Positions 1 to 57,274 of a DNA stretch of 64,000 nucleotides are shown in pieces. The notes beneath the pieces were generated by a model that was given only the letters and a program-made list of their open reading frames with translations, made no database searches and was not told the origin of the DNA. Source of the DNA: Cheilinus undulatus (Eukaryota > Chordata > Actinopteri > Labriformes > Labridae); contig NC_054885.1 in NCBI RefSeq assembly GCF_018320785.1, positions 10,662,421 through 10,726,420 of the forward strand, given 5' to 3'. The position numbers and the translations under genes were made by a program. Numbering within the stretch: position 1 is the stretch's first letter; every line of letters begins with the position of its first letter.

Positions 1-3000
1 GAATTGGGGATGGTAGCTCAGTTGCAGCCGCTGGCGAGTGGCCATGGATGGCGAGCCTGCATAAGAATGGGAAGCATGTGTGTGGTGGGACTCTGGTGGC
101 TGAAGATTATGTGTTGAGCAATGCCAACTGCTTCTCAAGGTGAGACAGCTAGAGTGATGTCACTCATGGTGCAGTGCAGGGTGGGAGGGGGACTCATTTT
201 CAGCCCTGGAGTTTTATCGGTCAGACCAGCGCAGTTTAGTTAAAGTTACCTGGACAGGATTTTGAACTGCAACCCTAACCCTAACCTAACCCTTCACTGA
301 AGTTTCACAAGAGCACAGTGGCCTTCATTAACCTCAAATGGAAGAAGTTTGGCGCAACTAGGACTCCTCAAAGATCTGGTTGCTTGACTAAACGTAGCAA
401 TCAGGAGAAAAGGGCTTTAGTAGGAGAGGTTATCAGTGATTCCTAAAGACTTCTTTATATTATAGCACCTTCTTTTTATCTTGAACAGTTCCCCCACACC
501 ATCTGAATGGACCGTCATTTTAGGTCGTTTGAAACAGAACGGATCAAACCCATTTGAGGTAATACTGAATGTGACAAACATCACTCTGAGCAACTTGACT
601 GGGTCAAATGTGGCAGTGCTGCAGCTGTCACCAAGACCCACCCTGTCGAACTACATCCAGCCCATCTGCCTAGACGATGGACGGACCTTCGCTGAGGGCT
701 CAACCTGCTGGGTTGCTGGGTGGAGCTCTGGGACAGGGGGCGGTGGGTCTAAATTCCCTGTGTCAGTTAACTATAAGATAAGAAATTCAGATGTTAAAAA
801 ATTAATCAACTTCATGCAGTATGTATGATAATTAGATATGCTAATAGTCCCTCTGTTTCACCATTGTTAGAGGAACAAGTTCTGCAGGAATTCCAGACCT
901 CAATCAAAAATTGTGGAGACAGTTCGTCAAGTGATGTGATTTGTACAGGAGTGTTCTCATTGGGAGAGGTGAGTAACAAAAGCAGGAAACTGCCAAACTT
1001 TAGTTTTTCAATGGTGCAGCACACACAGTACATACAATACCATACAATATGGTAAATATGATTCATTATAGTATGATATGAAGTGATTATATATGAAAGC
1101 TTTGGTGCTTGTAATATGATGTAAACAATACATTAGTTTACTCAGTTTACCATATTAGATTATACATTAGGATACCATATGATTTGATGTAATAAAATAC
1201 ACTGCAATAAAAAGCAGATACAATGCAGTATTATACTGCTCAGTATATCGCAGTACTACATTGAATTAAAGTACTTTATTTTATATTAGAAGATACGACA
1301 GAAAGATATGATAATACATGATACAATGAAGTACGATGCAACATGATAGAATAGGGTAAGGTAACAAACAATACATATATAATACAGATATGATACAGTA
1401 CAACACATTATGGCATAAGATGAGATATGACATGACATTATAGGATGATATACCAATGGTATCTAATATCTAAAGCCCATCTACGCTTTGCTGCTCCCTT
1501 TGCAAGCTTCTTTTTACAACCCTCCTCCACCCCAGCTCCTCCTGTTTTATACCTCTGACTTCAGCAGTGTCATTCTGTTGTCATTTATGCCTGTTCTGCT
1601 CTGTTTTTTGCTGCTTCTCTCCCTGCCCCAGGCTTGGCTTGTAGGCACAGGAAAGGCAAGAACATGTGGTGTTCCTGTTTGATGCTTTCCATGTAGACTA
1701 CTTTGTACTCAATCTTCATGCTAAACATTAGCATGTCCATCTTTCCTTTATTTTAAGGGGGATTCTGGTGGTCCTCTGATGTGTGAGTTGGATGGATCTT
1801 GGTACCAGGCATCTGTGTTATTGTATGAAGACGACTCCAAGAGTACAGCACGAGAAGATTCAATAATGGTCTTATCCAAACTGAGCCGCCATCAGGACTT
1901 CTTGACTAACTCTGTAGGGACATTCTTGATGCCAGCCTCCATCGCCAACACCACCAGCAGTACTGACAGCCCAGACAGCACTGATAGCACTGACAGCACC
2001 GCCAGCACTGCCAGCACCACCAGCACTGATAGCACCCACAGCACAGACAGCACAGACAGCACTGATAGCACTGACAGCACTGACAGCACCCACAGCACTG
2101 ACAGCACTCACAGCACCCACAGCACTGACAGCACCCACAGCACTGACAGCACTGATGACAGCACCACTCCGCCAGCCTCATCCGACCGTGAGTGCCTGCT
2201 AAATTTACCCATGCTGAATCCAAGCCTAAAATCCTGAGCTAGAAAACTACTGTTTGGGATAGTTTTGTGTTCATTTGACAGCAACTTAGTCAAGATCTTG
2301 TCACTTCATTGAAACCAAGGACTCTTTTGTGACTGCACCATTTCATTTGCCTCACTGTTCCAGATTGTCTTACGAAATAACATCTTCAAACATACTTTCA
2401 TCTCTACCAAAAAGTCAGGATAAAGATAGTGACAAGATCTGGCACTCAATAGACAAGCCGTTATATGCAGACTTTTTCCCCTTTTCTTCCAGCTGTGGTC
2501 TGCGGTCAAGCCTCACTGAATTCACGTATAGTAGGGGGAAGCTCAGTTGCAACAGCAGGCGAGTGGCCGTGGATGGCGAGCTTGCAGAAGAATGGGAAGC
2601 ACGTGTGTGGTGGGACTCTGGTGGCTGAAGATTATGTGTTGAGCAATGCCAACTGCTTCTCAAGGTGAGACACCTAGAGTGATGTCACTCGTGGTGCAGT
2701 GCAGGGTGGGAGTGGTCGTCATTTCGGCCCTGGAGTTCCATGGGTCAGACCAGCCCAGTTTAGTTAAAGTTACCTGGACAGGATTTTGAATTGCAACCCT
2801 AACTCTAACCTAACCCTTCACTGAAGTTTCACTGGAGCCTATCCCAGCTGTCATTGGGCGAAAGGCGGGACTGGTCACCAGTCAACAACAGGGCTAAAAA
2901 CAAACATATCAAACGTATTTATTGCACATAATACATTTTAATCTCTAACAATATCATATATACACAGTATATTATATAGTTTACCTATAAAGATCTATAT

Positions 3001-5250
3001 ACAACCCCAATTCCAAAAAAGTTGGAGCACTGTGTAAAATGTATATAAAAGCAATGCAATGATCTGCAAATGTCAGAAACACGTATTTTATTCACAATAG
3101 AATGCAACCAACACATCAGATGTAACTGAGACATTTTACCATTTCATGAAAACATATCAGCTTGTTTTAAATCTGATGGCAGCAACACAGTTCTCAAAGT
3201 AGGGATGGCGCACCAGGTCCAAAGAATCAAGAGAAATCTCTGTAGTCAAGGAGCAAAGCCAAAGGTCAGTATATGATGTTTGTGATCTTTGGCCTCTCAG
3301 ATGGCACTGCATTAAAAACAGGCATGATTCTTTAACTGGAAATCACTGCATGGGCTCAGGAACACTTCCAGAAATCATTGTTAATCAATACAGTTCACTG
3401 TGCCATCCACAAATGTAAGTTAAAGCAATATCACACAAAGAAGAAGCCATGTGAATGCAATCCAGAAGTACTTCCACTGTCTCTGGGCATAAGCTCATTT
3501 ACATGGACTGAGACAAAATGGGTAACTGTTCTGTGGTAGGCTGAATCAAATTTGAAATTACTTTTGGATGGAATAAAGGGGAGAGGGACCATCAGACTTG
3601 TTATCAGCACACAGCTCAAAAGCCTGCATCCCTGATGGTATAGGGTCACATTATGCCTATGATGTGGGCAGCTTACACATCTGGAAAGACACTTTCAATG
3701 CTGAAAAGTAGATCGAGATTTTGAAACAACATATGCTACCATTCGGACAGGATCTTTTTCAGGAAAGGCTTTGCATATTTTGGCAAGACAATGCTAAACC
3801 ACAACAAGAAGAATCCAGGTGCTAAATTGGCCTGCAGTCCAGACCTTTCACCATCTTTGAGAATAGTGTAAAAGGGCTGTAAAGGTTTAACCCCTGAATT
3901 AAAGTGATCAGTCAGTCCTAATGACTTCTTTCTACCTCCAACAGTTCCCCCACACCATCTGAATGGACCGTCATTTTAGGTCGTTTGAAACAGAACGGAT
4001 CAAACCCGTTTGAGGTAATACTGAATGTGACAAACATCACTCTGAGCAACTTGACTGGGTCAAATGTGGCAGTGCTGCAGCTGTCATCTAAACCCACCCT
4101 GTCGAACTACATCCAGCCCATCTGCCTAGACGATGGACGGACCTTCGCTGAGGGCTCAACCTGCTGGGTTGCTGGGTGGAGCCCTGGGCGAGGAGGAGGT
4201 GAGTTTGAACCCAGAAAAAACCTATTCCTTATGTGGATTAGATATTCAGACACTGAAAGATTCATAAAGTTCATATGTTTGCCCATGTGAGGTAGTACTG
4301 CTGTTTGATTCACTTCTAACAGTTTTTTGTTTCTACACTTTTAGGGGAACAAGTTCTGCAGGAGTTCCAGACCTCAGTTGTAGATTGTGGAAACAGTTCA
4401 TCAAGTAATGTGATTTGTACTGGAGTGTTCACACTGGAAACGGTGAGTAATTGTTATGACCTACACCTTTAACAAGCTGTTGATCAGCATTGGGTTTTTG
4501 CTTATCCTAAATCTGAAGCCATACCATACCATAGCATACCATACCACATTCGATACAGGACACAAGGTAAATCCTATACCAGGTGACATCACCAGCCCAC
4601 ATATTTGCCCTGCCCAAATTAAACCCAGACAAGAAAGGGGCGAAAAACTTTCTAACAGTCTAAATCCAAAATTTTGTCACATGTAGATCTCAGTGTTTTC
4701 ACGTATTTACAGCAACCTTATTCTAACATATCTAGTGTGTTAAGACGCACATTTTGGATTTCACTTTACAGGGTCGTTGAATTCAGCATGATTATCTATT
4801 GCTGTCTCATGAGGCCTGCAGACCAGACCTGCAGCAAAACGGCAATCAGTGTGAACTTAGAACTCAATTTCACATTGAAAATGAATGTGCTCATCTTTCC
4901 TTTATGTTAAGGGGGATTCTGGTGGTCCTCTCATGTGCAAGTTGGATGAGTCTTGGTTCCAGTCGGCTGTGTTATCCTTTGAAGACAACTCCAGGAGACA
5001 AGCGCGAGAAGATTCAATGATGGTCTTTACCAAATCTAGCTTCTTTCGGGACTTCCTGTCCAGCATCATAGGGACTTTCTTATCTCCAGCTGCCTCCTCC
5101 TCCACCCCTGCCAGCCCCACTCCAACCGCCACCAACCCCACAGCTACAGACAGCGTTACCACCAGCAGCAGCAGCGGCCCTGCTCACTCCTCTTTCTTCA
5201 TCCTTTTCCATCTTCTCGTCTTATCGTTGTGTCTCCAACTCTTTATATAG
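1..5250 (+). CDS. Gene A: polyserase-2/PRSS36-like serine protease homologue, 3' part (5' end outside window)
   Basis: Eight exons are visible by homology and splice sites: 1-139 (partial), 489-742, 871-968, 1758-2187, 2493-2664, 3945-4198, 4345-4442 and 4912-5250. All phases join in frame. They encode two tandem S1 (chymotrypsin-fold) domains, each made of four exons, and internal exon lengths 172, 254 and 98 nt recur. The His motif reads SNANC instead of AAHC and the Asp motif GSNVAVLQL instead of DIALL, while GDSGGPL is kept, so both domains should be catalytically dead. The protein ends in a Ser/Thr-rich stalk and a 20-residue hydrophobic tail typical of a GPI signal, suggesting a cell-surface protein. 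An active first domain may lie upstream of the window, as in gene B; that is inference. No canonical AATAAA was found just after the stop. The closest known architecture is polyserase-2; fish databases may label it serine protease 27-like or testisin-like. Confidence 0.85.
140..488. other. Gene A intron, paralogous to the intron at 2665
   Basis: The first ~165 bases match the start of the intron at 2665-3944 at high identity, including a run of CCCTAA-like units (about 273-295, also about 2805-2828). It is therefore internally duplicated intron sequence, not a telomere array. The rest holds nothing recognisable. Confidence 0.7.
1020..1470. repeat. AT-rich degenerate simple-sequence tract in gene A intron
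   Basis: About 450 bp of imperfect short repeats rich in atac, gata and tatga words within the intron 969-1757. No coding sense is seen. It resembles a decayed microsatellite; shorter 'ataccataccatag' words occur in the equivalent intron at about 4520-4545. Confidence 0.6.
1962..2150 (+). repeat. Coding minisatellite, 9-bp unit encoding Thr-Asp/His-Ser
   Basis: About 21 head-to-tail copies of a 9-bp unit (consensus agcactgac) in frame inside the exon 1758-2187. Most units read T-D-S; others read T-H-S, T-A-S, T-T-S or P-D-S. The tract follows the pseudoprotease fold directly and precedes the next domain, so it forms a flexible, potentially O-glycosylated and acidic linker. Repeat number is likely polymorphic. 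The equivalent linker in gene B is short and Pro/Thr-rich and lacks this repeat. Long open frames on the opposite strand here are by-products of the repeat. Confidence 0.9.
2830..2905 (+). repeat. Teleost interspersed repeat fragment
   Basis: The stretch from gagcctatcccagctgtcat through a GGCGAAAGGCGGG motif to 'tcaccagtcaac' resembles a very common fish repeat fragment. It marks the point where the paralogous introns at 140 and 2665 stop matching. Family assignment is from memory and not verified. Confidence 0.45.
3001..3875 (+). mobile_element. Degenerate Tc1/mariner-like transposon remnant in gene A intron
   Basis: It begins with the widespread fish terminal motif 'caaccccaattccaaaaaag'. 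It continues into a decayed transposase on the plus strand: fragments corresponding to WTE.K....VLW..ES.FE, then a DNAKP-like stretch ('cagcttacacatctgg', 'gacaatgctaaaccac') and a SPD/SP-like end ('agtccagacctttcacc'). Stops and frameshifts show it is dead. It lies wholly within the intron 2665-3944 and does not interrupt the exons. Confidence 0.65.
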
Positions 5251-6510
5251 AAACCTCTTCCTTTAGATAGTGATTTGCATGATGTGACTGGCACAAATGA
5301 ATGTAAAAAAACTTTAATACGACAGCATTTGTTGGCATTTAAGTAATTTATTAGTATATTGTGTGAATCCACTCTATGTATATGTATGTGATTGGTACAC
5401 AGCTCAAGTTTACGTCAAGGTATGCAAAAGTGGCAAACTGAGGAAGGTAGAAATGTGCTGTATAGTGTTATTTGATTATCCAGAAAATCCATTGACTGCA
5501 CCGAGGGAGATTTAATTATTTAAACATAATTTTAAAATCAAAACTTACCATTGACAGTATATCTGAAATAGACACTATTCAAGCCTTTTGAATAGCCTTT
5601 TTCAGTGCAGTTTAAGAGTGGCAATATTTGGAAAAATGGCTTGAATCTGAGAGATAGCTTTACTGTTTATACTTAAATTGTATAGTCCCACACAATCTGG
5701 CTTGGAAGTGATCCCTTGTCAGCTGAAAAAAAGGTTTATAGTGATCTAATCTAAGGGCAAACAAGTCATTATAAGGACAAATCACGACCCAAATCCCAAG
5801 AAAACAGCTTATTAATTGCAATAAAAAGAGGCAAATGATTTTAAATATTGTTAAAACATTTAAATGTACCCAATTTCACAGTAAAACTTGATAAATAAAA
5901 GGTATTGATGCATGCCCACTAAGTACGTAAGTACTTCATAGACTTTCTGCTACCATTTTTCTTTTTTTTTTCTTTTTTTTTTTTTACACGACCCACTGAA
6001 AACTCCTCCGCAACCCACTTTTGGGTCCCAACCCACCTGTTGAAAACCACTGCAGTAGATGACATTAACTTTAAGAACAATGATCCAGGCTGCTTTAACT
6101 TTCTATAGCATCAAAAACACAATTCTGTTTGTTTGTCTTTGATGTGACACAAATGTATGGTCATTAATTTTGTCTAAAGAGAAACTATGGATGCCGGCTG
6201 CTTTAAGTCTGATGTGTCAGGTGTAAAATGAAGAATTCCTGAAGCTGCACGGAAAAAAATGTTTGTATTATGTAGCCTATCACTTGACTTTTGCTGTTAT
6301 TGAAGCCACATATATCATAAGAATATAACATGATATTTTTATATTTTTTTACTGATTGAATTTTTTTTTTCCATACAAAGAAGAAAATGAGAGCAGTTTT
6401 ATTCAACAATAATGTGAAAAACACATTTTGAAGTGCTAAAAACACGTCTACCTGGTTCTGTCTGCAAGCTGCTGTACCATGATACTGTTTTGACTCAGTA
6501 CTGATGATGA
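5251..6510. repeat. 3' flank of gene A, duplicated at 57275-58870
   Basis: The sequence right after the gene A stop matches that after gene B: 5265-5410 matches 57289-57440, and 6185-6500 (including a 'gctgctgtaccatgat' block) matches 58540-58860. The match is interrupted in this copy by the hAT remnant ending at 6052 and in the other by a SINE. It probably contains the 3' UTR, but no canonical AATAAA was seen close to the stop. Confidence 0.75.
5740..6052. mobile_element. hAT-type non-autonomous element, right part
   Basis: It ends with GTTGAAAACCACTG at 6052, the inverted form of the CAGTGGTTCTCAAC terminus seen at 47431. The internal words 'ggtattgatgcatg' and 'cccacttttgggtc' are shared with the fuller copy at 47431-47902. 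A poly-T run (about 5960-5985) lies inside. The left end was not recognised. Confidence 0.6.
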
Positions 6511-8970: not shown

Positions 8971-9126
8971 GATGTTGCCCGCCATCTTCCGGTCGCGAGA
9001 GGAACTGCATCAGCGGGACACCGGCGCCCCTTCATCCATCTTCATCTTCCTCCTCCTCGGTTCAGCAGTCCGTTAACAACACGCTGATTCTGTGCGTCGT
9101 TCACGGCTATTTCACCGGCCGTCGAG

Positions 9127-26800
<17,674 letters not shown>

Positions 26801-38210: not shown

Positions 38211-38211
38211 T

Positions 38212-40940: not shown

Positions 40941-40943
40941 GCT

Positions 40944-40983: not shown

Positions 40984-43900
40984 ATGGCTCTGAACAAAGT
41001 GATCTACACAGCAACCCTGCTGGCTCTTCTCATACAAGGTAAGACCACCCTTAACACACCTGTAGCAATCATATTTAAGACTGCTGTATGCCAGTGAGAC
41101 TCACAGGAAGAAGCAGAGCAGACAAGAAGAGGAGCTTAGGGGTGTATAGTTGTATTCCATGTGCAAACTCAGGCGTCAGTTTTAAGGATAAAAAGTACAA
41201 ACCAAAGAAATCAGCGTTACCTGTGCCTTTGATGTAAAAAATGCATAGATCTGGTGTTTGAAAATAAGCAAATCAAGCTGAAAAATAGAGAAAATATTTC
41301 TGCCTGCTACGTTAGAAAGACAAAGAATTTAGCTGTAAAAATACTCAAGTCTTTAAATCATTTTTACTCAAATATGCTCTAAAGTGACCCAAGGGTGAAA
41401 CTGTTATCCAGCATACGATTCTCCATCATGACATGTAATTATAACTGAATTTCAAGCGGCTGATAAATGACTGTTGGCACTCCAGTCAATCAGTGTACTG
41501 ATAATGCTTTTAGAATTTTGTCACAGCATCCTCAGCCTATAATTATAAACTGTTATAGCACCATAAAACCAGTCAGGTTGAATTTATATGTAAACTCCCA
41601 GTGGCTTTATTATCTATACCTACTCAAATGCTGCCGTTAACGTAGACATCAAATCTGCCATATGAGGTTCACAGGTGCAGCTCACACCAAAATTTCAGGA
41701 GTTTTTCAGATATTTTTAGCATATGTCAAAGCGGCTATTTCTATTTTTATATCCAGCTCCTTTTGGCCTCTCTATATGGTGTCATATGGGTCATTTTGCC
41801 TTGTTGGTGTTGGAAATTGTATCATGGGAAGAACTGAGTAAGGAGGGGGGTTGCATGTGGCCCGTGGGCCACCGGTTCCCACTGCTGCTGTACAGTCCAA
41901 TAATATCCTTCAGCTTGTTACATTATGACACCTTGAGTCTGAGCTCGGGGACTAGGACTCCCTAGCGGAGTGTGAGGCTCCTCTGCTGTGGGATCAGATT
42001 TGTGCCTATTCACTCAAATCATCATGGCACACTTACTTGATGTCTTTTGGAAAGATCACATGGTTTACTCTAATCAGATTTATCAATGAAAGAACTGAGA
42101 ATATATATGTTAACTTGAAGTTAAAGCAGAGGTGTAAAAACATTATTCACTGAGGGCTGCATTCAGAAAAATACCCGAGTGACGGGGCCGCTTTAATGTA
42201 GCTGCTTTAGTGTGTTAAAGTTTGTAAAACCAGTCTTATATAGTTTAATATGCTCAAAAACTGACTAACTTGAAGAAAAATAACAGCCACATCAACAGCT
42301 GACAAGAAATACATACTCATTGTTAAGGGCTTTCAGCCAGCTGGATCGCCACATTCAGAGCTAATTGCACAAAGTTGCCAAATTTCTTTGGACTGTTGGT
42401 GCTTGAAAAAAACGTTATGATAACCTTTTTCAATTTGACCTTGAGATGGACTTTATGAGCCTCAGCAGCAAACAAGACCATCAGCATTGCTGAGTTTCCA
42501 CACTAAACAGGATTTTTTTGTTTTCACTTAAATGTTTAATCTATACAAACTGCTTTTTACCCTCATACCCTTTTACTCCAAGCGCATCGTCGACGACGTG
42601 CTGTTGAAGCACACTTTACATGACCATAAATGCATGACTGTTTGTGCTATTGGAAAAATTCAAACAATTTCTGAAAGCTAAGAAACTGTGCTTTACAGCC
42701 AGCATGCGGTTATTTCTGTAATTTCCCCTTTTCCCACTAAGATTCTAGCATGAAGTTCCCCTGTTTTTTGTGTTTCTTCATTTTAAACTGTTAAAACACT
42801 TAACATGCAGTAATATGTAAATAACTGCCATATATTAAAAGTTCTAAGTATTGTGGAAAAATGGGAAAAAATAAGTACTTACAGGATATTTTCTGGGCCT
42901 TTTATAGTTAAAATAAGAAAAGAGCCCAGAAACTCAGTTTTAATTTAAACAGCTAAAAAAACACTTTTTAAACATGCAGTACATTGTACACAACTGCCAG
43001 GTAATAAAGTACTCTGGAATAATGGGCAAAAACACTTTCTGTGCCATTTAAAGTTAAAAAAAAGAACGTGTCCAGAGGCTCAGGAGTTAAAGGGTTAACT
43101 ACAGTAAATTAAGTGTTGAAAACAGGGAGCATTTGTGTCCTAAAAAAAAGGAACATTTGTGTTGAAATAAAGGAATGTTTGTGGTAATAATGGATCTTTC
43201 TATCAGACATTACAGCAACTTAAAAATGCGTCAGCTCAGATTTTTGTCATGGTTGGTGGTTTAAAGTTAAGGTGGAGCCACACCTCGTCATGTTGTTGAT
43301 TGCAAAATGTTGACTGAGGAAAGCATCGACCTTAAACATTTAGGCAATCCAGCACCAGGGCGAGACAACATTCATATTACAGAAAAAAACACTACTTCAA
43401 AATAAGAAGTCCAACAGGAACTAATAAAAATGCAAATGCTGGGATTCCAAATCCAGAATGTGTCTATTAAAAAAGGTTTAACACAAATGAAATGTAGGGC
43501 AGTGATCACACAGAGGGTTTTGCTTACTTAACAAAATGATATTAGGCTATGATCAATACAAACATTAATTGTACATCAACTCATTTGCCGCAAAAGAAAG
43601 ACCGTGGAGACAAAAGGAAAGGATAAAGAAGCAATGTCAAAGGGAAGAAAGAAAACAGTCAACATACAAAGAAAGAAAACAATAAAGACATAATGGTGGA
43701 AAAAAGAAAGGAAACAAGGTCAAAGGAGAGAAGACAAAATAAAGGAAGAAAAAGGAAAGAAAATAGAAAAAAGGATGAACAAACAGGAAAATAGAAAGGG
43801 TAACAAAACAATGGAAAAACATTAGTAAAGAGGAAGAAAAGAAGAAAGGAAAAATGAGGAGAAAAGAATAAATGAACCTTGCCTACATTACTGGTAAAAA

Positions 43901-46900
43901 GGCAAAACGTTGAAGTGCTCCAAAATGATCAATGCATATAGACTGACGAAACATTACAACAAATGTAAACAATAAAACAAGATTAAAAAAAATGGCAGGG
44001 AAAAATCTAAATAAAAGAATCCCAGCTGACTTACAAAATCGACGTTCTTTCTGCAAATAGGTCAGGCAAAAACTGTTAACCTCTGAGTCCAGGTGAACTC
44101 AAACTGATCTGTCCCTAAAAGCCATGTTCTAAAGTCAACCTAAAAACCCGTGTGGGTGCATACCACATGTGTTTACATATAGTCTTTACTTAAACCTCTG
44201 AGCTCCTTTCTTTAAAGCCCTTATGCAACTCTCCTGTGATATTGATGACTCATAATGGCTTAACATGTCATGCACGTATGAATCTTAACTATGGGGAAAC
44301 CAGACACTAAACACAACAAGATTCCTCAAATGTTTGTCTTCCACTATTTCCTGAATTCCATAATCTCATGAAAGCATACTAAAAATGATTTAGTGTTGTC
44401 AACACTCCAGTAGCTTTATGGCTTTGCTTTTTCCGTGATGATACAGCATTTAGTGGATGGATATGTTCAGAGCATGTGCAAACAAATCATAAAGGCCTGA
44501 TGTTCTCATCACTCTGATGCTGCTGACAACCATTTAGAAGAATGTGTAGCTGTTTGGATCTTGACAAACCTGATCAAATATCACTTTTTATCTCCATCTC
44601 CCTCCCCTCTCTGACTCTTACTCTTCTCCTGCATTTTCTTTTTCTCTTCTTCTGCATCTCCGTCTTTGTGCATCTTCCTCTTCACTTTTATGCATCTCCC
44701 TTATCTTCATGCATGTCCCTTTCTTCTGCATCAACCTCTTGTTTTTTCCACATCTTCCTCTCTCTCTCTTTATGCATCCACCTAATCTTTCTGAAATCCC
44801 CTCTACTCTTTTCTGTGTCGGTTCTCCTCTTCTCTTGTCTCTGCATTTCCTCTTCTCTTTCTTCTGCATCTCCCTTGCCTTTTTCTTCAAATCACTCATC
44901 TCTCTCTCTCTCTCTCTCTCTCTGCATCACTTTCTTATCTGATTATTTTGCATCTTTCTAATATCTCTTTTCTACAGCTTCTCCTTTTTCCACAACTTCC
45001 TCTTATTTTTTCTGCATCTTCCTATTCTCTCCTTCTGCATCTCCCTCTTTTCTCTTTTCCACATCTCCTTCTTCTCTCTCTCTGTACCTCCCTTTTCTCA
45101 TTCTCGGCGTCCCTCTTTCCTTCCTCTCTTTATCTTCCTCTTCTCTTTGCATCTCTTTTTCTCTGCCTTTCCATCTTCTCTCTTGCTGCATCTCCCTCTT
45201 GTTTTTCTGCATATTCCTCATCCCTTTTCTGCAATTTCTTCTGTCTCTCTTTATCTCCCTTAACTTTACACATCTCCTTAACTCTTTCTGCATCCCCTCT
45301 TCTCTTTTCTCTATTTCTAAATCCCCATCCTCTCTCTTTCTGCACCTACCTCTTCTTTCTGAATCTTCCTCTTATTTTGTTTGTGCATGTTCTCCCTCTT
45401 CTCTTTTTTCTGCATCTCTCTCTTCTCTTTCTGCACATCCCTGTCCGCTCTCTTTCTGCATCTTCTTCCTGTCTTTTTCTGTATCCTAATATCTCTGTAT
45501 CTCCCTCTTCTCTTTTCTGCACCTTCCTCTTCACTCCTTCTGCATCTCCCTCCTCTCTCTCTCTACATCTCCCTCTTTTTTTCTCACACCACCACATTCT
45601 TTCTCCTCTCTTCCCCTGCACACCTCTCATCTTTTTTTCTGCTTCTTCCTCTTCCTTCTATCTGGACTTTGCTTGGCTTGAGTTTTATGCCTGCTAGAAA
45701 AAAAGTGTTTCCTTGTCACTATGACTTTGCTAAATGTTGCTTGTTGCTGAGTTTGTAGTGTATTACTGTCCTTATAAATAATTTAAGAAAAGAAAGAATA
45801 TGGTCTAGACCTGCTGTCTTTCAAAGTGTGTTTGGATAATATTGGTTATATGTATTTGTGCTATGCAGATAAATATTTACTAGCTGGAGTTGTTGCAAGA
45901 TTAACAATCAGTACAGTGCTGTTACTTAGACGGCACCACTGTGAATGATTTATCAATTTTAATTGCTAATTAATTATTTATTATACTATTGATATTGCTT
46001 TAAATTTTACGGTTCTATGTTTTAAAAAGAAAGAAAATAAGGAGCAAGGTTGTATAACTTTTATTTTTTACTTCCCTCCTATCTTGTGACAGTTGTGTGT
46101 AAAAAATTCATAACCCTGACAGACATGGCGAGCCCTCCTCTAAGCTCTGAGACATCTGTCAGTATAGTGCCCCCCTCTGCTGACACTCCCCCAATCATCC
46201 GTCATTATGATGGAAGCAAACACACATAAAGAGCCTTTTGAAGGAAAATGATGGATCTGTGCTCTGTACAGTTGGTATTCACTGAGCTTGAGACAGAGCT
46301 GGCACGTTAACAATCCGGTCAAACCAGGCAGTTAAACCCGTCTGATAGCATATACACACGACACACCACCACACAGCAGGGAGATCTTTTAGAACAGCAG
46401 TGAAGTGTGAAAAAGACTAAAGAAGAAGGACACTCAGAGAATGGTGAAACCACCCACACATATACAGTAGCACATTTACTTTGTCAGTGCAGGAAGTTCT
46501 GTCATTAAGGCCATAGAAACCTTTTTGTTCTACTTTTAAAGGAAATTCTGTAACGTCGGGCTTTAATGACAGGTGCTGTCGATGTTCAGAGACACTTTTT
46601 TTCCAGTCTCTGAATGATGAATGACTTTACCTGCATATGATTTTTCTTCAACTTCAAACCCATGACTCAGGCAGAGGGTCACCTTAGGTTGGTGACGTAC
46701 TGGGACTTTTTTACATGTTTGTTTTTCCACTTATAAACTTTGAAATATCCTCAAGTCTAACAGAACAAAGCTGTGACACTCACTGATGACTCTAAAGCAG
46801 GGCTCATTAACTCCATCCGCACAAGGGCCAGCTTATCGTGGCAGACGCTGTGCGGGCCGGACATTGAAATAAACTCAACTAAAATTAATATTTTGCTCGA

Positions 46901-49900
46901 ATTAACATATTCTTGTAAAAATATTATTTATTTTAAAAATGAATGGCCATGTCTACTTAACACCTCTTATATACTCACCTATACTGAAGCCAGCCACAAG
47001 GGGGCGTTTTAGATATTTTACCTATATATTTCTGGAGCCCATCATTGAATTTGATGCCAATAAGCTGTGCTGTGATTGGTCAAATACACATGCAGGAAAC
47101 AGATCTTTTATGTAGATTCTCAGAATGAAAAATTGTACTCTAAAACAACAATGCTCAACAATAGCATGCTATATATTTTCCTTCTCAAATGTTCTAAATG
47201 TAATTATCCTCTGAGGGCCACATGGGAAGCCATGGGGGGCCCGATGTGGCCCCCTGCCTCCTGTTGATGATCCCTGGTCTAAAGTCTATTGGCCAATCAG
47301 CATCCATCACCGTTATGCTACCAATAACTTTCTTTATTTCCATATTTCACATACAGTGCCTACAGAAAGATTTCACCCCCTTGGATATCTTAACCTTTCA
47401 TTGATTTTATAAATCAGTCATGGTCTATACCAGTGGTTCTCAACTGGTCCCGCCTCAGGACCCACAAGTCTGTCTTATAACAGATCACAACCCTAGTTTC
47501 CAAAAAATGATAATAAGGCATGTGTAATTTATTAGATATGTTTTAGTCTGGAGCATGATTAGACCAAAACACCTGGTATAAAAAAGGAAAGGGACAAAAC
47601 TGACAAATCTTATAAGCTCTTTCCCCAGAATTATGTGTCAATTTTTGCCAATTTTCCAGAGAACTTGTGAAAATACTTCATTATCAAGGGAAAAGCAGCC
47701 ATTTATTGCAAGAAGAGAAGATAAAATAGTAAAATAGGGAAAAATTTCACAGTAAAACAAGGTAAAATAAAAGGTATTGATGCATGTCCAATAAGGACTT
47801 CTGGATTTTTGGCACCATTTTTTTTTCTGGCCACTTAGTTGGACTGACTGAAAACTGCTCTGTGACCCACTTTTGGGTCTGGACCCACCAAGTGAGAACC
47901 CCACAAAAATACAAAACATCTCTAGTGTCAAAGTGAAAACCGATGTCTGCAAAGTAATGTCATAAATTTTCACCCCCTTCAAAGTGACAAACCTTCAACA
48001 GAGATCCAGCTACTTGCTGCTAGTAGTCTCACTGTTAGTGAAATTGGTTCACCTGAGTGCAGTGAATGTGTCTCAAGTGATTGCAGTATAAAGACACCTG
48101 TGTCTGGAAGGTCCAGTCACTAGTTAATCAGTATTCCTGGCTACCATTACACCATAAAGAAAAAAAGAACACACAAGCAATTTCGAAAAAGGGTTATTGA
48201 AAAGTAATAGGCTGGGGTGGATACAAAAACATTTCCAAAGTACTGAATATCTCCTAGAGTTCAACTGAACCCATCATCAAGAAATGGAAGGAAATGGCAC
48301 GTGTGAATCTGCCTAGATCAGGCTGTCCTCACAAACTGAGTAACCGTGCAAGAAGGAGACTAGTGAGAGAGGCCACCAAGACACCTATGACTACTCTAAA
48401 CTAGCTCCAAGCTTCAGCAGCTGAGATGGGAGACTCTTCATACAACAACGGTTGTCCTGGTTCTTCACCAGTCAAAGCTTTATGAGAGAGCGGTAAAGAG
48501 AACGCCACTGTTGGGGAAAACTCGGATCAAATCTGGACAAGAGTTTACTAAAAGCATGTGGGAGACTCCATTGTCAAGTGTTACTAAGTTCTTTGGTCTG
48601 TTGAGACCAAAATGGTGCTTTTTGGCCATCAGATAAGACGCTATGTTTGGCAGACGCCAAACGCTGCACATCACCGCAAACACACCAGCCCCACTGTTAA
48701 GCACAGCAGTGGCAGCATCATGCTGTGGGGCTACCTTTTGTGGCAGACTGACTTTAGTATCATTTAACTGTTTCCAGTTAAACAATCCATTTTAAAGGCA
48801 AGACATGAAGAAAAAAAGGTTAAAGACATCTAGATATCCAGAAGCAACACAAATAATCCTTTATTGAAGGTGGGAGAAAACAATCACTTATACGCAGTAA
48901 AAAAAGAAACTTTTATTAAATCACACGAAATTAAACTACTAGAAAGTGATTCCAGTGTGTGCTAACAGAGGCGATGGTGTTGAAAGTTTTTCTCTTTCAT
49001 AAACAAATCAACCCCATCTCTTGTATATATTGCTGATTATTTTAGAGAAAATATCAATCTAAAACTGCTATCTAACCATTATCTTTCTTTTTTTTTCAGA
49101 GTGTCACTCACAGCAAGTTGGTAAGTCATCTGTTTATTACTCCCTCTCCTATGTGGCATTTTAAATATGCTGTGTGGGCTTTCATTGTGTTGCTACGTGT
49201 TTTTATTATTATTATAACCTCCAATGAGAAAATTGGCTGTGATTTAAAACAGTAAAACAATGTTTTTATGTTGGTCTGACACCCTTTAGCTTGACAAAAC
49301 AATTAAAGAATAAATGTGAACAAATCATTATACAGTGTAAATGCAATGCTGTTAGCCAGACTAAAGAAAACAGATATTTAAAATTTTATGTTGAATGTAA
49401 ATGATCAACTTAAATGCCGGAAGAGGCTTTCATTTTCTTTTGTCATTTTGTGGCCTGAGAGTGTCGGAGGCCTCACAGTTCAAGTGTGAAGCAGACCGTC
49501 TTGTTTTGTTTCACTAGTTTTGATGGTGTTGGTGCAAATTGATTTTTTATTTTGTATATTTTTAATCTACCCATTTTAAAATTCAAATTCAAATTTGTGT
49601 CTATATTTAACTGTGTTCGAATTTATTACCCTTAGTGATTCCCACTCCTACAGGTTATACGGAGCCTTAACAGAAACAATATGTCTGCATTTTGTGAATC
49701 ACTCCATCTAGAGATATTAAGAGAAAGGATTAATCTCATTAGTTTTCTTTATATATACAGAGGTGAGCCTCTGTTTACATTAAAACAAGAAATAAAAACA
49801 GAGCTGAAGACGCTGAAGCCTCACTACCCAGAGTGCAGTGCAGACTAAATTATGGTGGTAAAAATTGCATTTAGAACTTCACGTCAAAGTGCAGATATCA

Positions 49901-52900
49901 AGTGAGTTTTTTGTTTAATATAAATATAAGGAATACAAGTAAATCCAGCATGGGGAATTTATCTGACTTTTAAGCTCATTAAAGACAATTATGGCCACTT
50001 CAACAAACATAAAAGAATATCTTCAGTATTTTTAACCAAATTTTGGGGTTAAATCTTTTAAAGGGGACATATTTTACCCCTTTAAGACAAGTTTATATCT
50101 GTCTCAGAGGTCCTGCAAACATGCCTGTGAAGTCTGTTGCTGAGAAAAAACTTGAGTATTGGATTTTTGCATTTCTAAAAAAAACCCCTCTGTTTCAGCC
50201 CTGCTCAGAACGAGCCGTTTCTGTGTGTGTTTCTTTAAATGTCACTAAGCTGTCTAACTCCACCCCTGACTACGCCCTTCTCAGGAAATGGATGTGGCAC
50301 TCTTGATCCTCCTCAGCTGGCAGATGAGAGGAGGATCAGGAGAGGAGGGTGGCTCTTTCTTCCAAGGGTGGAGGGCCAACTGAACCTGGGGGCGGGGCTA
50401 AAACCCCACATGACATCATGAGGGGAAAATCTAAGAACGGCTTGTTTCAGCACACAGTTTCTGAAAGGTGGAGAAAGAGAGGAAGAGGGAATGGATTTTT
50501 CTGGTACTTGAGGGGATTGTGGCCGGCCAGGGGCACATATTTTTGTCATTATCAACTTCAGCCTGAATCAAAGCTAACAAATATTTAAACATTATTTTAC
50601 TTTGTGGAAGTAGATATTTTTACCTCAAGGTATTAATATATTTTAAATTTGAATCAGACACTGCACAAACCTTATTAATGTGTCAGAATCAATTTTGTTG
50701 CCCTTTCATCAGTGTGTGAATGTAGAGTGAAACAACAGTGGCATTGTTATCAAACTGGCTTTTTAAGAACACCATTTACACTTCATGCTAATGCTCATCA
50801 TTTGTCTCCTCTGTGTCTTTAGAGTGCGGGATAGCTCCTCTCAACACCCGCAACACCCGCATCGTTGGAGGGCAGGTGGCCGCTGCAGGCTTTTGGCCGT
50901 GGATGGCCAGTATACACGGATCTGGAAACTTTCACTTCTGTGGAGGGTCACTCATTACAAATGAGTGGGTGATTTCTGCTGCTCACTGCTTCCAAGGGTA
51001 ACCGAGAAAAGGAAGGAAGACTTCCTTCATACATGATTTTCAATTAAACAAAAACTTCTGAAACCACAGAACATGCAGCATTTATTCTGAGGTGTTGTCA
51101 GCCAAATCAGGTTGCTAAATGTGCTACCAGGAGTTTAGGCTACATTTAAAGGCTTCTTTTAGCTCTAGTTAGCATGCAAGGACGGTATTTCAGTGGCCAT
51201 TAAGATCTCTTGCATGACAAAAATGAACATATCCTACAGACATCTGCGGTGTAGACCATAGCCTCTTTCCACATTTAAACAGGGACTAACCACTATTAGC
51301 AAGCATTTGGCAGCTGTTAAAAGAAAAGCTCACTTTGAACAGGCAGAAACCTCAAGCAGGACCAAACTCACAGTGAACACCCGTTTTAACTGTATGGGTG
51401 GAGAAATATAACCAGAGCTTCCTTTTTGCTACAAATTAGAAAGTTCACTTACAATGATGTTGCACACCACAGTTTTCCATGTCTGAGCTCTGTTTTTTTC
51501 CATTCCCCAACACTCTAGAACCATCCCGAGCAGTTTGACTGTGTATCTTGGTCGACAGACCCAAGAAGGAACCAACTCCAACGAAGTGGCTGTAGGAGTC
51601 TCACAGATCATCAATAATCCTAACTACAACAGTGCTACCAGTGACAATGACATTGCCCTCTTGAGGCTGGCCTCAACTGTAACTTTTACAAACTACATCC
51701 GGCCCGTGTGCCTGGCAGCCTCGGACAGCACCTTCTTCAACGGCACTGACACCTGGGTCACCGGCTGGGGTAACATCCAATCTGGAGGTGGGTCAGAAAA
51801 CAGCTGTTCTTGAAAGAGCCATGGCCTTTTATATGTTTAGGTATAAAACTGTAATTTCTTTTTAAAAGTGGGGCAAAATAGTTACATCCCTTTGTATTAC
51901 AGCCTACAATAAAAAATGCACTCTTCAGATTACAGCCAATCACAGCAGAGTGAGGCTTTGCTGTATTGGGAGAAATAAAAGCCACAAGTCTTCATCCAGT
52001 AAACTAAACAAACAAAATAGAGTCCTTGGTTAAAAAAAAAAAAAAACCTTCAATATAGAATATTACCTGGGGGTAGCCTTAACCAAAAGGGTCCCTTACA
52101 ATGAAACCTAGAAAGTGTGGCCAAATACTTTTTGGCCAGAGAGTGTAGCTCAGACTCACATAGAGGTGGTCTGGGATGTCTTTATTTAGATTGGATGATC
52201 TGATCTGAGCCGTTTTCTGCTAGTACACAAAAGCATGGCTTTATTTGTGTCTGTCCAGCCTCCAAAAGAATGATGGGAATTGCGGCTCTTTTTCGAGAAG
52301 TAATAAAAGCTTTTCTTGGCTCCTAAATTGCCTTTTTATGTCTTTAAAACAAAACAAAAATTAAAAAAGAAGGAGACTGTCTCTTAAACAGGAGCCTGCT
52401 CCCATTGCTCACGAATGGTACATCACAACTCCATCGTAACTTGTCATCTTGAATTAAGTTGTGATTTCAATCCATGGTATCCCACATGTTTTATTTGCTA
52501 AACAGTTTAACACAGTTTCTATTAAAGGATGTTTATGGTAACATGGGGGGAAAGAAAAGCCATTAAAGAGGCACTGCTAGCTTCTTAGCTAGAAGCTGAA
52601 TCCCCTTCTTCTCATTTCTTTGTTGATGATCCTGATATATACTGCTGTGCTCATATGAAATAGCTATGACTATTCAATGCTATGACTTGTTCTAAATGCA
52701 GAGTTCAATTTAAGAACAGTTAAAATAACACTGTGTGAAAAAATGTTGCCTTAAAGACCCTGTAAAGTGAAAATGAACCTGTATGTAGGTTTGTTGTATG
52801 ACAGGTCAATGTGTTATAACCAGTGTTGGGGAGCATTACTTTTGAAACTAACTCGTTAGATTACTGCGTTACATACTGAGAAAAGTAATTTGTTACATTA

Positions 52901-55900
52901 CCGCGTCACCTTCTTTGAAAACTAACACATTAGAGTACTTTTGTGTTACTAAATATTAAAACCCTTCAGCCACTCGTTCCACTCAGCGGTTGTAAAAAAG
53001 ACAGATAATAACCACACGTCTGCATTTAAATGTGCAGACTGTAATGCCAATGTACAGCGTAATTTAAAGCCCATAATCTGTATCTCTGCAGCCTGAGAAC
53101 ACCACTAACAAACAGGAAAACCTTTATATCTTTTTAACATGCTCACAATCTGACAACAAGCTGAGCAGAGGCAGACAGAATCATAACAGCGCATAATTGG
53201 AACGGCTGAACAGCTGATTCAATGAAAGCAAAAGGAGCTTTTAAACTTACGTTTCACCAGGATGCTGTCCTTGTCCCTTTCATCCAAAAGTCCATCATAA
53301 TGGGGATAATTACACAGTGGCCTGCTGTCCTCTCTGTAATCTTGCTGGCTCAACAAGCTAACAATGCACGCGTAATGGCACAGAATGTTTACCTTCTGCT
53401 GGCACGTGCCAATGTGACTACAGGAAGAGAGAAGGACAAACAGAGCAGATGCTTCAAGGAGCTTCTTTTTTTTCTTTCTCTCTTTTTTGAGGCAAGAGGA
53501 AATTTGGGATTTTTCTTTCAGTGACAGATTACTTTAATAAAAATGTAACTAATAATGAGATTACTTGAATTTTAAAACTAACGCGTTACGCTACTCGTTG
53601 CTCCAAAAAAGTAATCTGAGTACTCTAACTGATTACTTTGTAACCCTTTACCCCCAACACTGGTTATAACCCCTAAATCAAATTTCAGTCAAATAAAAAA
53701 ATCTTTAAATTTATAAAATTATGCTTCAAAATCATGAAAAATGAGGCAGTAAAATCTGCTCCAGGATGGTGTGGGCATGTCTGTTGAATGAGCTGAAGCC
53801 ACGCCCACTCAGGAGAAATAGGATCCTCTCAGATTTAAAAATGTTACAATCTGATTCATGACCTTATGATCAGAACGGCTCTGTGCCAGAGAAGAGACAA
53901 AGTCTGTTTTCTGGCTCAAATCTCTGTTATGATACTTTAAATGACCCGTACGCTACCGTAGCTGATAGATTCAGAAAATTAACAATGAGCAAAAAACAGC
54001 ATTTGACTGACTTCACTTTCAACCAAGGCAGTGGCATCAGTGAACGACAGACTGTAGTGAGATGAGCCACTCTGTAGTAGTATTGTTTGTATTGTATTGC
54101 AGTGTTAGAGGAGTGGGGTCATATTTTCCCTGCCCAAATTAAACCCAGCCAGGAAAGAGGTGGAAAAACTTTCGAATGGTCTAAATCCAGAATTCAGTCA
54201 CGTTTACAGTAGGGCTGAACGATTTGGGAAAAATGTCTTTTATTTAACCTTTATTTAACCAAGATTTATTCCCACTGAGATACAAAAATCCCTTTTTACA
54301 AGGCGATTTTTTTACCCAATATTGCAATTGCAATTTGAAATGCGATTATTCCTTAAGTTCCTCATCTTGTGTATTTTCCAACAAACACAAGCAATCAATT
54401 ATTCTATATCACAGCTAACCCAATATTAAACTAAATAAGGGCTGAAAAATTTTGAATAAATAACTGTTTGTGATGATGTTGACTCATATTGAAAACTAGA
54501 TATGGGTTGGTGTATTACCATTCTCATATTTGATAAGAAAAACAAATAAAAATGAAGAGAGTAAGATTTTTTTGTAGACTATTCTAAAAAAAATACACTT
54601 GAATCATTGCATAATTATGTCATGCATAACATCTCTGCCGCAAAAAAAGTTTTACACTGGTATTTTGACATAAATTTCAGGTTAAAGAAATATTAGACCT
54701 TTTGGGATTTGAAAATTGCTGCAGGCTATATTGTGATTTAATCTAAACTAGTTTCCTAGTTTGCAGCAACCTTATTCCAACATATCTAGTGTGTTAAGAT
54801 ACGAACTTTGGATTTGACTTGTTGTTATTCAACAGTTGGTTATACTATGGGGCTGTCACAAAACTACATATCATTTTTAAATGACTTATTCAAAATTAAT
54901 TTGTGTGTCAACAGTGTCCCTTCCTTCTCCCGGAAACCTCATGGAGGTGGAGGTGCCAGTTGTAGGAAGCAGACAGTGCAACTGTAACTACGGAGTGGGC
55001 ACTATCACAGACAACATGATCTGTGCTGGGTTAGAAGATGGAGGAAGGGACTCCTGCCAGGTGATCATTTTGAACTCCAGTATTTATGTCAGATTTGAAA
55101 AGCTGTGAGGACAGTTCTCCTAAAGGTGCTTCTCTTTACTCAAAGGGGGATTCAGGAGGTCCAATGGTGAGCAAGCAGAACGGGCGCTGGCTCCTGGTCG
55201 GGGCTGTGAGCTTTGGACGAGGATGTGCTGAGCCTAATTTCCCAGGAGTCTACGCCCGTGTGTCTCAGTACCAGACATGGATCAACAGCCAAATCGTCAC
55301 CAACCAGCCGAGCTACATTACCTTCACATCCACAGGGACCGACGGCGATTTAAGTGTCAACTGTGCTGGGCTCCCTCCAGCACCAACCAACCCTCCAACC
55401 ACACCTGCACGTGAGTGCCTGCTATCAGTTTATACACACTGATTTAAGCCTAAAACTTTGAACTGGAAATCTGCTGTTTGGGATATTGTCACATTTATCT
55501 GGCAGCAGCTTAGTTTGTCTTTGGCAGGATTTACAAGGCCCAACACTCAGAAGGAAATAGAAAGCTCCAGATACCCTTGTAGTTTAGAAAAAAAATGTAT
55601 TAGACCAATGCATTATTTTAGCTTAAAGCCTTCATCAGGATCATCCAGAAGCACATTGCAAACGTCCTTTAAATATAGTAGTATTAGAGTAGTAGTCAGT
55701 CTAATAAAGCTGTTCATGGAGATTTCTGTTTTCTTCAAGACTTTATTCATCCTCCATGCACCTTTGAAGCTTTGAAGTTGTGCCAGAAATACCTACGTCA
55801 GTCTACACTCAGAAAGAAAACTTTATTTGCATATTTTGCTTTTATTTCTTTCTAGCTGTGGTCTGTGGTCAAGCCCCATTGAATTCTCGTATAGTGGGAG

Positions 55901-57274
55901 GAAGCTCAGTTGCAACAGCTGGTGTGTGGCCATGGATGGCGAGCCTGCAAAAGAATGGGGGCCACGTGTGTGGTGGTACTCTGGTGGCCGTAGATTCTGT
56001 CTTGAGCAACGCCAACTGCTTCTCAAGGTGAGATACCAACAGTTTCACCACTCAGACCAGCCAGCCCAAAACTGGTGATGTAAAATCTAGCCTTACGAGT
56101 ACAAAAGTCTAAAATAGTGCACCAAGAAGTGCTATCTTGCTGAGCATCAGTAGGTCATTAGGTCAGTCCTAATAACTTCTTTCTACCTCCAACAGTTCTC
56201 CCACACCATCCGAATGGACCGTCGTTTTGGGTCGTTTAAACCAGAACGGATTGAACCCGTTTGAGGTGACGCTGAATGTGACAAACATCACTCTGAGCAA
56301 CCTCACTGGGTCGAATGTGGCAGTGCTGCATCTGTCATCCCAGCCCACCCTGTCAAACTACATCCAGCCCATCTGCTTGGACAATGGACAGACCTTCGCT
56401 GTGGGCTCAACTGCCTGGGGTTCTGGTTGGAACTCTGGACGAGGAGGGGGTGAGTCTAAAGCAGAGTAATATTGATATTGATCCTTGTATCACTTCATCT
56501 CTTTTCATAAGATATTTAGGCATTGAAAAAAACCATTAAGTTGATATATGCTCATTTGAGGTAGCTACCAGGGTTGGATTCACTTCTAATAGTCCTTTTA
56601 TTCCTCCATTGTTAGAGGAACAAGCTCTGCAGGAGTTCCAGACCTCAGTTGTAGATTGTGGAAACAGTTCATCAAGCGATACAATTTGTACAGGATCATT
56701 CACGCTGGAAGAAGTGAGTATTAAAGGCATTTTATTTTAACTTCCTGTTTTATCAAGACGTTGATCATTGCGTTTTTTGCTCATATTTTGTAAAATATCT
56801 GGAGCTTTACTTTGCACCTTACTTTGGGTGGGTTATTCCATTTTTGCCTTGCAAGGTCTGCTGGGAAATGATGCAAAACAGCAATTAATGTGAACTGTGT
56901 ACTTAATTTTTAAGTTCTCCACATTTCCACCTTTCCTTTATGTTAAGGGGGATTCTGGCGGTCCTCTGATGTCAAAGGTGGATGGATCCTGGTTCCAGGC
57001 GTCTGTGCTATCATTTGAAAATAACTCCACCAGAATCGTGAGAGCAGATGCAGTGATGGTCTTAACCAGACTGAGCCACTTTCAGCAGTTCTTGTCCAGC
57101 ACTATAGGGACTTTCTTATCCCCAGCCTCCTCCACCAGCAGCAGCACCACAGCTTCAGCCAACACCATTGCCACCACCACTACCAGCAGCAGCGTGGATG
57201 GCCCTGCTCACTCCTCTTTCTTCATCTTTTTCCATCTCCTCGTTTTATCGTTGTGTCTCCAACTCTTCGTATAG
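40984..57274 (+). CDS. Gene B: polyserase-2/PRSS36-like serine protease with one active and one dead domain
   Basis: The ten coding exons are 40984-41038, 49100-49120, 50823-50997, 51519-51787, 54915-55060, 55146-55410, 55856-56027, 56196-56449, 56616-56713 and 56948-57274. They total 1782 nt (593 aa), all in frame. The N-terminus ([18 protein letters not shown]) is a signal peptide. Domain 1 is a complete trypsin-like protease, followed by a Pro/Thr linker. Domain 2 has a dead triad. The C-terminus is a Ser/Thr stalk plus a hydrophobic GPI-type tail. It should be a secreted or GPI-anchored surface protease cleaving after Arg/Lys. Human PRSS36 has three protease domains; this has two. The start is chosen because the upstream ATG at 40971 gives no signal peptide. 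Fish orthologues may be named serine protease 27-like or testisin-like. Confidence 0.9.
43598..43870. repeat. Polypurine (GAAA-rich) tract
   Basis: About 270 bp dominated by A and G on the plus strand, built of gaaagaaaac, ggaagaaaaagg and similar words. It is degenerate simple sequence with no coding sense. Confidence 0.7.
44581..45664. repeat. 1.1-kb homopyrimidine minisatellite
   Basis: An almost uninterrupted C/T-rich strand built of degenerate units of roughly 22-35 bp resembling 'tctgcatctccctcttctc', with the purines confined mainly to the recurring 'gca'. Long open frames on both strands here (including a 249-codon one) are artefacts of this composition. Such tracts can adopt triplex (H-DNA) structures. 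Confidence 0.85.
46798..47275. mobile_element. Non-autonomous hAT-type element with target duplication
   Basis: The termini cagggctcattaac (46798) and gttgatgatccctg (ending 47275) are imperfect inverted repeats. The flanking 8-mers ctctaaag (46790-46797) and gtctaaag (47276-47283) match at 7 of 8 positions. The interior contains 'gggcc' blocks at both sides and no transposase. Confidence 0.75.
47352..48760 (+). mobile_element. Degenerate Tc1/mariner transposon, interrupted by a hAT element
   Basis: The left terminus tacagtgcctacagaaagat plus 'ttcacccccttgg' starts at about 47352. Its sequence is broken at 47430 by the hAT element and resumes after about 47902 with 'tttcacccccttcaaagtg'. From 48150 to 48750 a decayed transposase is readable: a helix-turn-helix-like KKWKE..., RPR, AT..AP..S segment, and near 48700 a [10 protein letters not shown]-like block. 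Many frameshifts; inactive. Confidence 0.65.
47431..47902. mobile_element. hAT-type non-autonomous element nested in the Tc1 remnant
   Basis: It starts with cagtggttctcaactggtcc at 47431 and ends near 47902 with a decayed inverted copy (ggacccaccaagtgagaacc). The body shares 'ggtattgatgcatg' and 'gacccacttttgggtc' words with 5740-6052. It splits the Tc1 element, so it inserted later. Confidence 0.65.
50060..50575. repeat. Common teleost interspersed repeat in gene B intron 2
   Basis: It begins 'aaaggggacatattttacccc' and contains 'gctcagaacgagccgtttct' and 'ggggcggggctaaaacccc' blocks characteristic of a repeat seen across many fish genomes. No coding capacity. Class not assigned. Confidence 0.55.
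52150..52420 (+). repeat. Dispersed repeat copy 2 (shared with 15780-16210)
   Basis: Lies in gene B intron 4, same orientation as the copy in fus intron 6. Blocks 'tctgggatgtcttta..tagattggatga', 'aaaagcatggctttatt' and 'gaaggagac.gtct' are shared. Just upstream, 52110-52150 is a 'ccaaatactttttggccagagagtgta' Tc1-like terminus. Confidence 0.5.
52821..53662. mobile_element. Intact-ended non-autonomous hAT element with perfect 8-bp target duplication
   Basis: Perfect termini cagtgttgggg (52821) and ccccaacactg (ending 53662) are flanked by identical 8-mers gttataac at 52813-52820 and 53663-53670. Subterminal 'gttaga/ttactgcgttac' and 'gtaatctgagtactctaactgattac' blocks are typical of a widespread fish hAT family. 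The 842-bp interior has no transposase. Confidence 0.9.
54214..54765. mobile_element. Interspersed repeat inserted in gene B intron 4
   Basis: The flanking sequence (54120-54205 and 54765-54830) matches gene A intron 4616-4770 continuously, but here about 550 bp intervene, beginning 'tagggctgaacgatttggg' and containing 'attgcaattgcaatttgaaatgcgatta', a familiar fish repeat motif. Comparison with the empty paralogous site supports insertion after the A/B split; exact ends are uncertain. Confidence 0.6.
55856..57274 (+). other. Gene B pseudoprotease domain and GPI-like tail
   Basis: Exons 55856-56027, 56196-56449, 56616-56713 and 56948-57274; the first three have the same lengths as the gene A cassettes. 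Cleavage site NSR/IVGG and propeptide VVCGQ are intact. His57 is Asn (SNANC), Asp102 is Asn (SNVAVLHL), Ser195 is kept. Unlike gene A, Cys136 (TAWGSGW) and Cys201 (GGPLMSK) are both missing, a coordinated loss of one disulfide. Cys191 and Cys220 are also missing. The tail after a Ser/Thr stalk ([10 protein letters not shown] then a hydrophobic end) fits GPI attachment. TAG at 57272-57274. Confidence 0.85.

Follow-up and report, generated by a model that had tools for sequence, protein, structure and literature searches.

What keeps a serine protease (S1) domain in a gene when its catalytic residues have been replaced? The question is raised by a 64,000-nucleotide stretch of the Cheilinus undulatus genome (C21:10662421-10726420, hereafter the window), which we analyzed against the whole genome (1.17 Gb, 46 contigs). 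A motif scan combined with exon reconstruction placed SNANC at the catalytic His, SNVAVL at the catalytic Asp, and GDSGGP at the catalytic Ser in each of three pseudo-S1 domains (P3, P4, and P5), where the sequence-only reading of this DNA had put them. In all three domains, exons 2 to 4 measured 172, 254, and 98 bases and the frame had no stop codon, again as had been claimed; the splice sites were GT-AG. The features of the window are as follows.

1..2187, + strand: P3, first pseudo-S1 domain of gene A; exons 1-139, 489-742, 871-968, 1758-2187
2493..5250, + strand: P4, second pseudo-S1 domain of gene A; exons 2493-2664, 3945-4198, 4345-4442, 4912-5250
40984..41038, + strand: putative signal-peptide exon of gene B (18 protein letters), with a phase-1 donor
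50823..55410, + strand: A9, active-looking S1 domain of gene B, with linker; exons 50823-50997, 51519-51787, 54915-55060, 55146-55410
55856..57274, + strand: P5, pseudo-S1 domain of gene B; exons 55856-56027, 56196-56449, 56616-56713, 56948-57274

Exon 2 of P3 starts 32 bases upstream of the window and ends at 139, and the last exon of this domain also codes for a Ser/Thr/Asp linker that continues into P4. This linker is encoded by 22 tandem copies of a 9-base unit (window 1958-2155). P4 and P5 each end with a Ser/Thr stalk, a GPI-like hydrophobic tail, and a stop codon. A9 carries H57, D102, S195, and D189, and A8, the active neighbor in gene A, lies 0.3-3.4 kb to the left of the window. The P4 intron at 2665-3944 has 1280 bases, compared with 349 bases in the matching P3 intron, and by eye the extra sequence resembles a dispersed repeat.

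Gene models and copy number

The window belongs to a tandem array on C21 with nine active-looking (A1-A9) and five dead (P1-P5) S1 domains, all on a single strand. The array consists of four genes in tandem, which contain 4, 3, 1, and 1 active S1 domains and 1, 1, 2, and 1 pseudo-S1 domains, respectively. The spliced gene models, all in frame and without an internal stop, resulted in products of 1432 aa (A1-A2-A3-A4-P1), 1156 aa (A5-A6-A7-P2), 909 aa (gene A, A8-P3-P4), and 586 aa (gene B, A9-P5). These models use the true codons; the single-domain translations open with a codon whose first base was filled in as G. A polyserase has at least two S1 domains per polypeptide, and the spliced models hold 2 to 5.

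A conserved hydrophobic start exon has a single copy upstream of each of A1, A5, A8, and A9, and it was absent from the five scanned spacers between neighboring active domains. On C21, every active domain (nine of nine) has a last exon that leads into a splice donor; in all four genes, the tail and the stop codon sit in the last exon of a dead domain. In P1, P2, P4, and P5, Ser, Thr, Pro, and Ala make up 82-90% of the stalk, which leads into a hydrophobic tail and the stop codon; the last 17 residues have a mean hydropathy of 2.01, 2.46, 2.54, and 2.46, respectively. The GPI tail and the signal peptide were judged from composition, and both are putative.

The dead domains scanned against Pfam, P4 and P5, matched PF00089 with 130 and 108.3 bits, respectively, and A9 with 242.9 bits (curated cut-off 20.6). 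The scan of the whole of gene B gave two Trypsin stretches and the families Trypsin, Trypsin_2, and DUF1986 only, with neither an LDL-receptor A module nor a clip domain in this gene. NCBIfam gave no match, and Rfam gave none in the window.

The active-looking domains differ among themselves. Six of the nine on C21 (A2-A7; C21:10601910-10639655, left of the window) have Gly in place of Asp189 and therefore should not be trypsin-like, and the gene A5-A6-A7-P2 contains no Asp189 domain at all. Asp189 is kept in A1, A8, and A9, as well as in the domains A10, A12, and A13 of contig C20. Each of the 12 aligned active domains has nine cysteines, an odd number (for example, window 54915-55410), and the C21 active domains have one more Cys in the following linker, which suggests a linker disulfide that the dead domains do not have.

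A fifth gene was found on C20. It has five near-identical active modules and then a dead domain, P6, that ends in a hydrophobic tail of its own (mean hydropathy 2.35); the domain order and tail of this gene are those of the C21 genes. P6 reads SADC, SNIALL, and GDQGGP, and its frame is open. In two of the active modules, A11 and A14, one-base indels break the frame as assembled (C20:18518001-18528000), and a start exon of the C21 type was not found in the 11 kb searched. The C20 gene may represent a recent amplification with decay or an assembly error, and the frameshifts, together with the start exon that was not found, mean that P6 may not be translated.

The count of three dead domains was right for the window, and the genome as a whole holds at least six, in five genes. 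Of the 173 candidates in the whole-genome search with P4, 150 were scored. A possible seventh copy, on C4, was rejected as an ordinary serine protease with AAHC and GDSGGP. An 18-base degenerate codon pattern for SNANC matched 13 genome positions, four of which are P2-P5, compared with one match for the reversed-pattern control. The other nine matches coincide with none of the trypsin matches listed; they exceed the control and could include a repeat.

Three further features of the region were recorded. The interval 44001-48000 of the window has a GC skew of -0.26 and an AT skew of -0.16, with CT-rich tandem repeats at 45010-45577. The interval ~59860-60460 and two places outside the window share closely similar short translated stretches, probably one dispersed repeat. 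To the right of the array, at about 10.7395 Mb of C21 on the + strand, there is a 286-codon open frame with a GTPase P-loop near its start, which we take to be of the GIMAP/AIG1 type.

Extent of the catalytic loss

We surveyed 27 landmark positions in the six dead domains (P1-P6) on a corrected alignment. None of the six has the complete His57, Asp102, and Ser195 triad of an active S1 domain. Position 57 is S, N, N, N, N, and D in P1 to P6, position 102 is N in all six, and position 195 is Ser in five and Gln in P6. The double loss with an intact Ser195, which the sequence-only reading had described for the window, is therefore the pattern of four of the six copies, the exceptions being P1 (Ser57) and P6 (Asp57, Gln195). 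Similarly, GDSGGP is exact in four copies, with GDSGSP in P1 and GDQGGP in P6.

The losses far exceed two triad residues. Asp189 is absent from the six domains, and Cys191, Cys220, Pro225, and Gly226 are replaced in all of them; Gly216 is replaced in five, although a nearby insertion makes these last columns less sure. Exon 4 has 98 bases in all six dead domains, compared with 146-149 in the 12 aligned active domains, and the shorter exon removes part of the 168-189 region. The exon borders of P6 were set by hand with the frame as a guide, so that its exon lengths are partly a choice. With the catalytic base and the pocket gone, the usual chemistry is not expected and the retained Ser195 is best read as a passenger; the suggestion that this residue is meaningfully preserved is not supported, given the Gln of P6.

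Other parts of the fold are kept. Cys1, Cys42, Cys58, Cys122, Cys182, Gly193, Asp194, and Arg15 are present in all six copies. Arg15 is preceded by Ser in the dead domains, and the following Ile16-Val17-Gly18-Gly19 is whole only in P4 and P5. The cysteine count is eight in P1-P4 and P6 and six in P5; P5 lacks both Cys136 and Cys201, whereas the other five copies have the two, and loss of cysteines in pairs is expected of a protein that folds with disulfide bonds. Every dead copy has a Cys to partner Cys182, the gap at position 168 being produced by the aligner, which sets the dead-domain Cys under the second Cys of CNC/CSC. An NIT sequon in the 99-loop is kept in the six dead domains, with up to two more close by. 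In the NIT column, no active domain has a sequon, whereas A1, A2, A3, and A5 have one elsewhere in this loop.

Common origin and selection

In the protein tree, the six dead domains, including the C20 copy, fall on one side of a branch with a support of 100/100. The tree has one distant outgroup, and the long branches of P6 and of the outgroup make exact places unsure. This single origin removes the argument from parallel preservation in genes A and B, as the two genes do not represent independent cases. P3 and P4 share 96.5% of their exon 3 sequence, whereas the remaining nine C21 pairs share 84.6-94.1%, a difference suggestive of exchange between copies; the 77.2% identity of P3 and P4 in exon 5 is uninformative, since this is the most divergent exon in each of the ten C21 pairs. 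P6 has only 44-59% DNA identity by exon to the C21 dead domains. It provides the stronger evidence for a maintained fold, since it is divergent yet keeps an open frame, the cysteines, Arg15, and the NIT sequon.

For the codon models, tree topologies were fixed beforehand, and the omega of the stem between active and dead domains, which rests on a branch at its upper bound, was left out. A11 and A14 were dropped from all domain alignments, A12, a near-copy, from the tree and the codon models, and A13 from the joint model. The dead domains P1-P5 resulted in an omega of 0.607 (2dL = 13.4 against omega 1, p=2.5e-4), and IQ-TREE also returned 0.607. The active domains A1-A9 resulted in an omega of 0.656 (2dL 18.7, p=1.6e-5). 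In the pairwise comparisons, dN/dS ranged from 0.30 to 0.62 among P1-P5, with a bootstrap upper bound <1 in nine of ten pairs, the remaining pair P1-P2 being indistinguishable from 1 (0.62, 0.36-1.12). Among A1-A9, it ranged from 0.40 to 0.99, with an upper bound <1 in 27 of 36 pairs.

By exon, from exon 2 to exon 5, the omega of the dead domains was 0.40, 0.60, 0.58, and 0.69 (2dL 9.9, 3.4, 2.4, and 2.5), so that only exon 2 differs clearly from 1 when taken alone; the corresponding values for the active domains were 0.67, 0.59, 0.52, and 1.08. In the joint model (224 codons), the recent dead and active branches did not differ (2dL 2.41). The deep branches to C20 gave an omega of about 0.10 for the dead and 0.125 for the active domains (2dL 0.08), values obtained with synonymous change near saturation. 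The NG86 dS between the C21 dead domains and P6 was 2.19 and 2.48 in two pairs and undefined in three.

Additionally, we simulated neutral evolution on the five-copy C21 tree, with P4 as the ancestor and branch lengths scaled from the codon tree to approximate dS. All five copies were stop-free in none of 1000 runs (mean of 21.3 stops), and chance is thus an unlikely source of the open frames.

The proposal that the dead fold is selected for is borne out by these values (omega 0.61 in the dead and 0.66 in the active domains, both different from 1). Neither an omega near 1 nor stops or frameshifts, which had been named as outcomes that would speak against it, were found for the six dead copies of this genome. 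Purifying selection on the dead fold, about as strong as on the live domains, is well supported by these sequence comparisons. An omega of about 0.6 is moderate and does not point to a particular function.

Candidate roles and known systems

The dead domain probably has a non-catalytic job at the cell surface. The reading we favor, at about an even chance, is that these genes encode GPI-anchored polyserases whose dead domain serves as a membrane-proximal platform and may dock onto its active neighbor. Of the roles offered by the sequence-only reading, a scaffold is thus the one that fits best. The chain, if expressed as modeled, would consist of a signal peptide, one to several active S1 domains, a dead S1 domain (two in gene A), a Ser/Thr stalk, and a GPI-attachment tail. 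The dead domain would fold like a protease, with its disulfides and a surface glycan, and would hold the active domains at the cell surface even after a cut at Arg15: since Cys1 and Cys122 are kept, established S1 architecture predicts that the cut chain would stay attached through a disulfide. Gene A counts against the platform, as it has two dead domains and P3 lies away from the tail. In addition, the retention of Arg15 in all six copies is no less compatible with a cofactor that is cleaved than with a passive platform.

A wider reading, tentative and rather unlikely, takes the pseudoprotease as a common membrane-proximal adaptor, fish-specific or older, through which a freely expanding set of active S1 domains of changing specificity shares one GPI anchor and whose dead domain controls assembly or activation. 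If it were true, a single GPI anchor would present several joined proteases, differing in specificity, at the cell surface.

A regulated cofactor, in which the dead domain is switched on by a cut at Arg15 and then assists its active neighbor, is a possible but doubtful alternative. It is suggested by the Arg15 that follows Ser in all six copies although IVGG is whole only in P4 and P5, and by the non-catalytic S1 homologues of insects, which act as cofactors after cleavage (PMC6901238). However, P1, P2, P3, and P6 have no intact IVGG, on which the usual activation switch depends, the Pfam scan showed no clip domain in gene B, and the insect proteins act on separate enzymes.

We consider it improbable that the dead domain merely hitchhikes, persisting only for its frame and for the anchor signal and stop codon of its last exon. 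The anchor-like tail does lie in the last exon of a dead domain in five of five genes, and the other dead-domain exons cannot simply be skipped because the preceding module ends in phase 1 and the last exon starts in phase 0. However, hitchhiking would keep the frame and not the amino acids, whereas the amino acids are constrained (omega 0.61 for the whole domain, 0.40 for exon 2), and both contigs retain the cysteine pairs together with the NIT sequon.

A decoy or trap that binds serpins, Kunitz inhibitors, or substrates through the former active cleft is very improbable. Gly193 and Asp194 are kept in all copies and Ser195 in five, but the S1 pocket is missing, which disfavors an inhibitor trap: Asp189, Cys191, Cys220, Pro225, and Gly226 are gone from all six copies and Gly216 from five, and P6 is without Ser195. 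Serpins require an acylating enzyme. One to three sequons also lie in the 99-loop beside the cleft, and these count little alone because A1, A2, A3, and A5 have a sequon in that loop as well. An inhibitory or serpin-binding role, as suggested in the sequence-only reading, is thus unlikely to work through the cleft.

Lastly, that the domains are decaying copies caught before stops appear is scarcely credible, since, although the one-base indels of two C20 active modules indicate that frame loss occurs in the family, none of the 1000 neutral runs left all five copies stop-free, omega = 1 was rejected, and P6 is still open with dS between the C20 and C21 copies near saturation.

For the platform as for its alternatives, the family offers material for experiments. 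One genome provides six dead copies in five genes, active parts of one to five domains, and measurable selection. The role of the dead domain is testable through the built-in variants (one or two dead domains, the losses at positions 57 and 195, and the cysteine pairs), and the anchor-like tail would make surface assays simple. To our knowledge, the function of polyserase inactive domains is an open question, and we found no role described for the dead domain of fish polyserases in searches of open-licence PMC papers.

Genes of this type may be filed under another name in fish annotation. The label 'tmprss9-like' is used for a Stegastes partitus protein, and a salmon probe of that name rises in the hindgut on a plant-meal diet (PMC4911373); the full name 'transmembrane protease serine 9-like' also occurs in fish expression papers. 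Fish annotation under this name may hide the dead domain and the C-terminal tail. We compared the salmon primers (PMC4911373) with the domains, and the best sites, in P4 and P5, matched 16 of 20 bases; for shuffled primers, the 95th percentile was 14 matching bases and the maximum 16. The two best sites in P5 are ~320 bases apart, compared with a reported distance of 194 (PMC4911373). The possible link between the salmon probe and the dead domain is only a lead.

Among single-domain proteases, prostasin and testisin have a signal peptide, one active S1 domain, and a C-terminal GPI-type tail. This plan resembles the genes described here, but here the tail follows a dead S1 domain. In a comparison of P4 with solved structures, prostasin was among the best 60 of 495 matches, the top ones being TMPRSS6 and enteropeptidase. 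The insect clip-domain homologues share with the dead domains a non-catalytic S1 fold; they need cleavage, and the cleavage point is retained here. They carry a clip domain and are separate proteins (PMC6901238), whereas here the dead domain is fused to an active one.

Human polyserase-1 (TMPRSS9) is similar to these genes in its tandem S1 domains within a membrane-bound chain. However, TMPRSS9 carries a type II transmembrane motif along with an LDL-receptor A module, and release of its domains is described (PMC1435904), whereas in gene B the anchor, if any, is at the C-terminus and the Pfam matches are to the trypsin-type families and DUF1986 only. Human polyserase-2 (PRSS36) is the nearest of these systems in plan; the comparison with it, which had been made for this locus, holds for the overall plan but probably not for the anchor. 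In polyserase-2, as here, several S1 domains share one chain, the first active and the later ones inactive by triad loss (PMC1435904). It is secreted, and its inactive domains are described there as without R-IVGG (PMC1435904), whereas the genes described here have a GPI-like tail, Arg15 in six of six dead domains, and a whole R-IVGG in two of six (P4 and P5). The number of active domains before the dead end domain also varies from 1 to 5 here, which differs from polyserase-2. As predicted from their sequences, the wrasse genes are a variant within the polyserases, with a GPI-type tail, a variable number of active domains, and a dead end domain.
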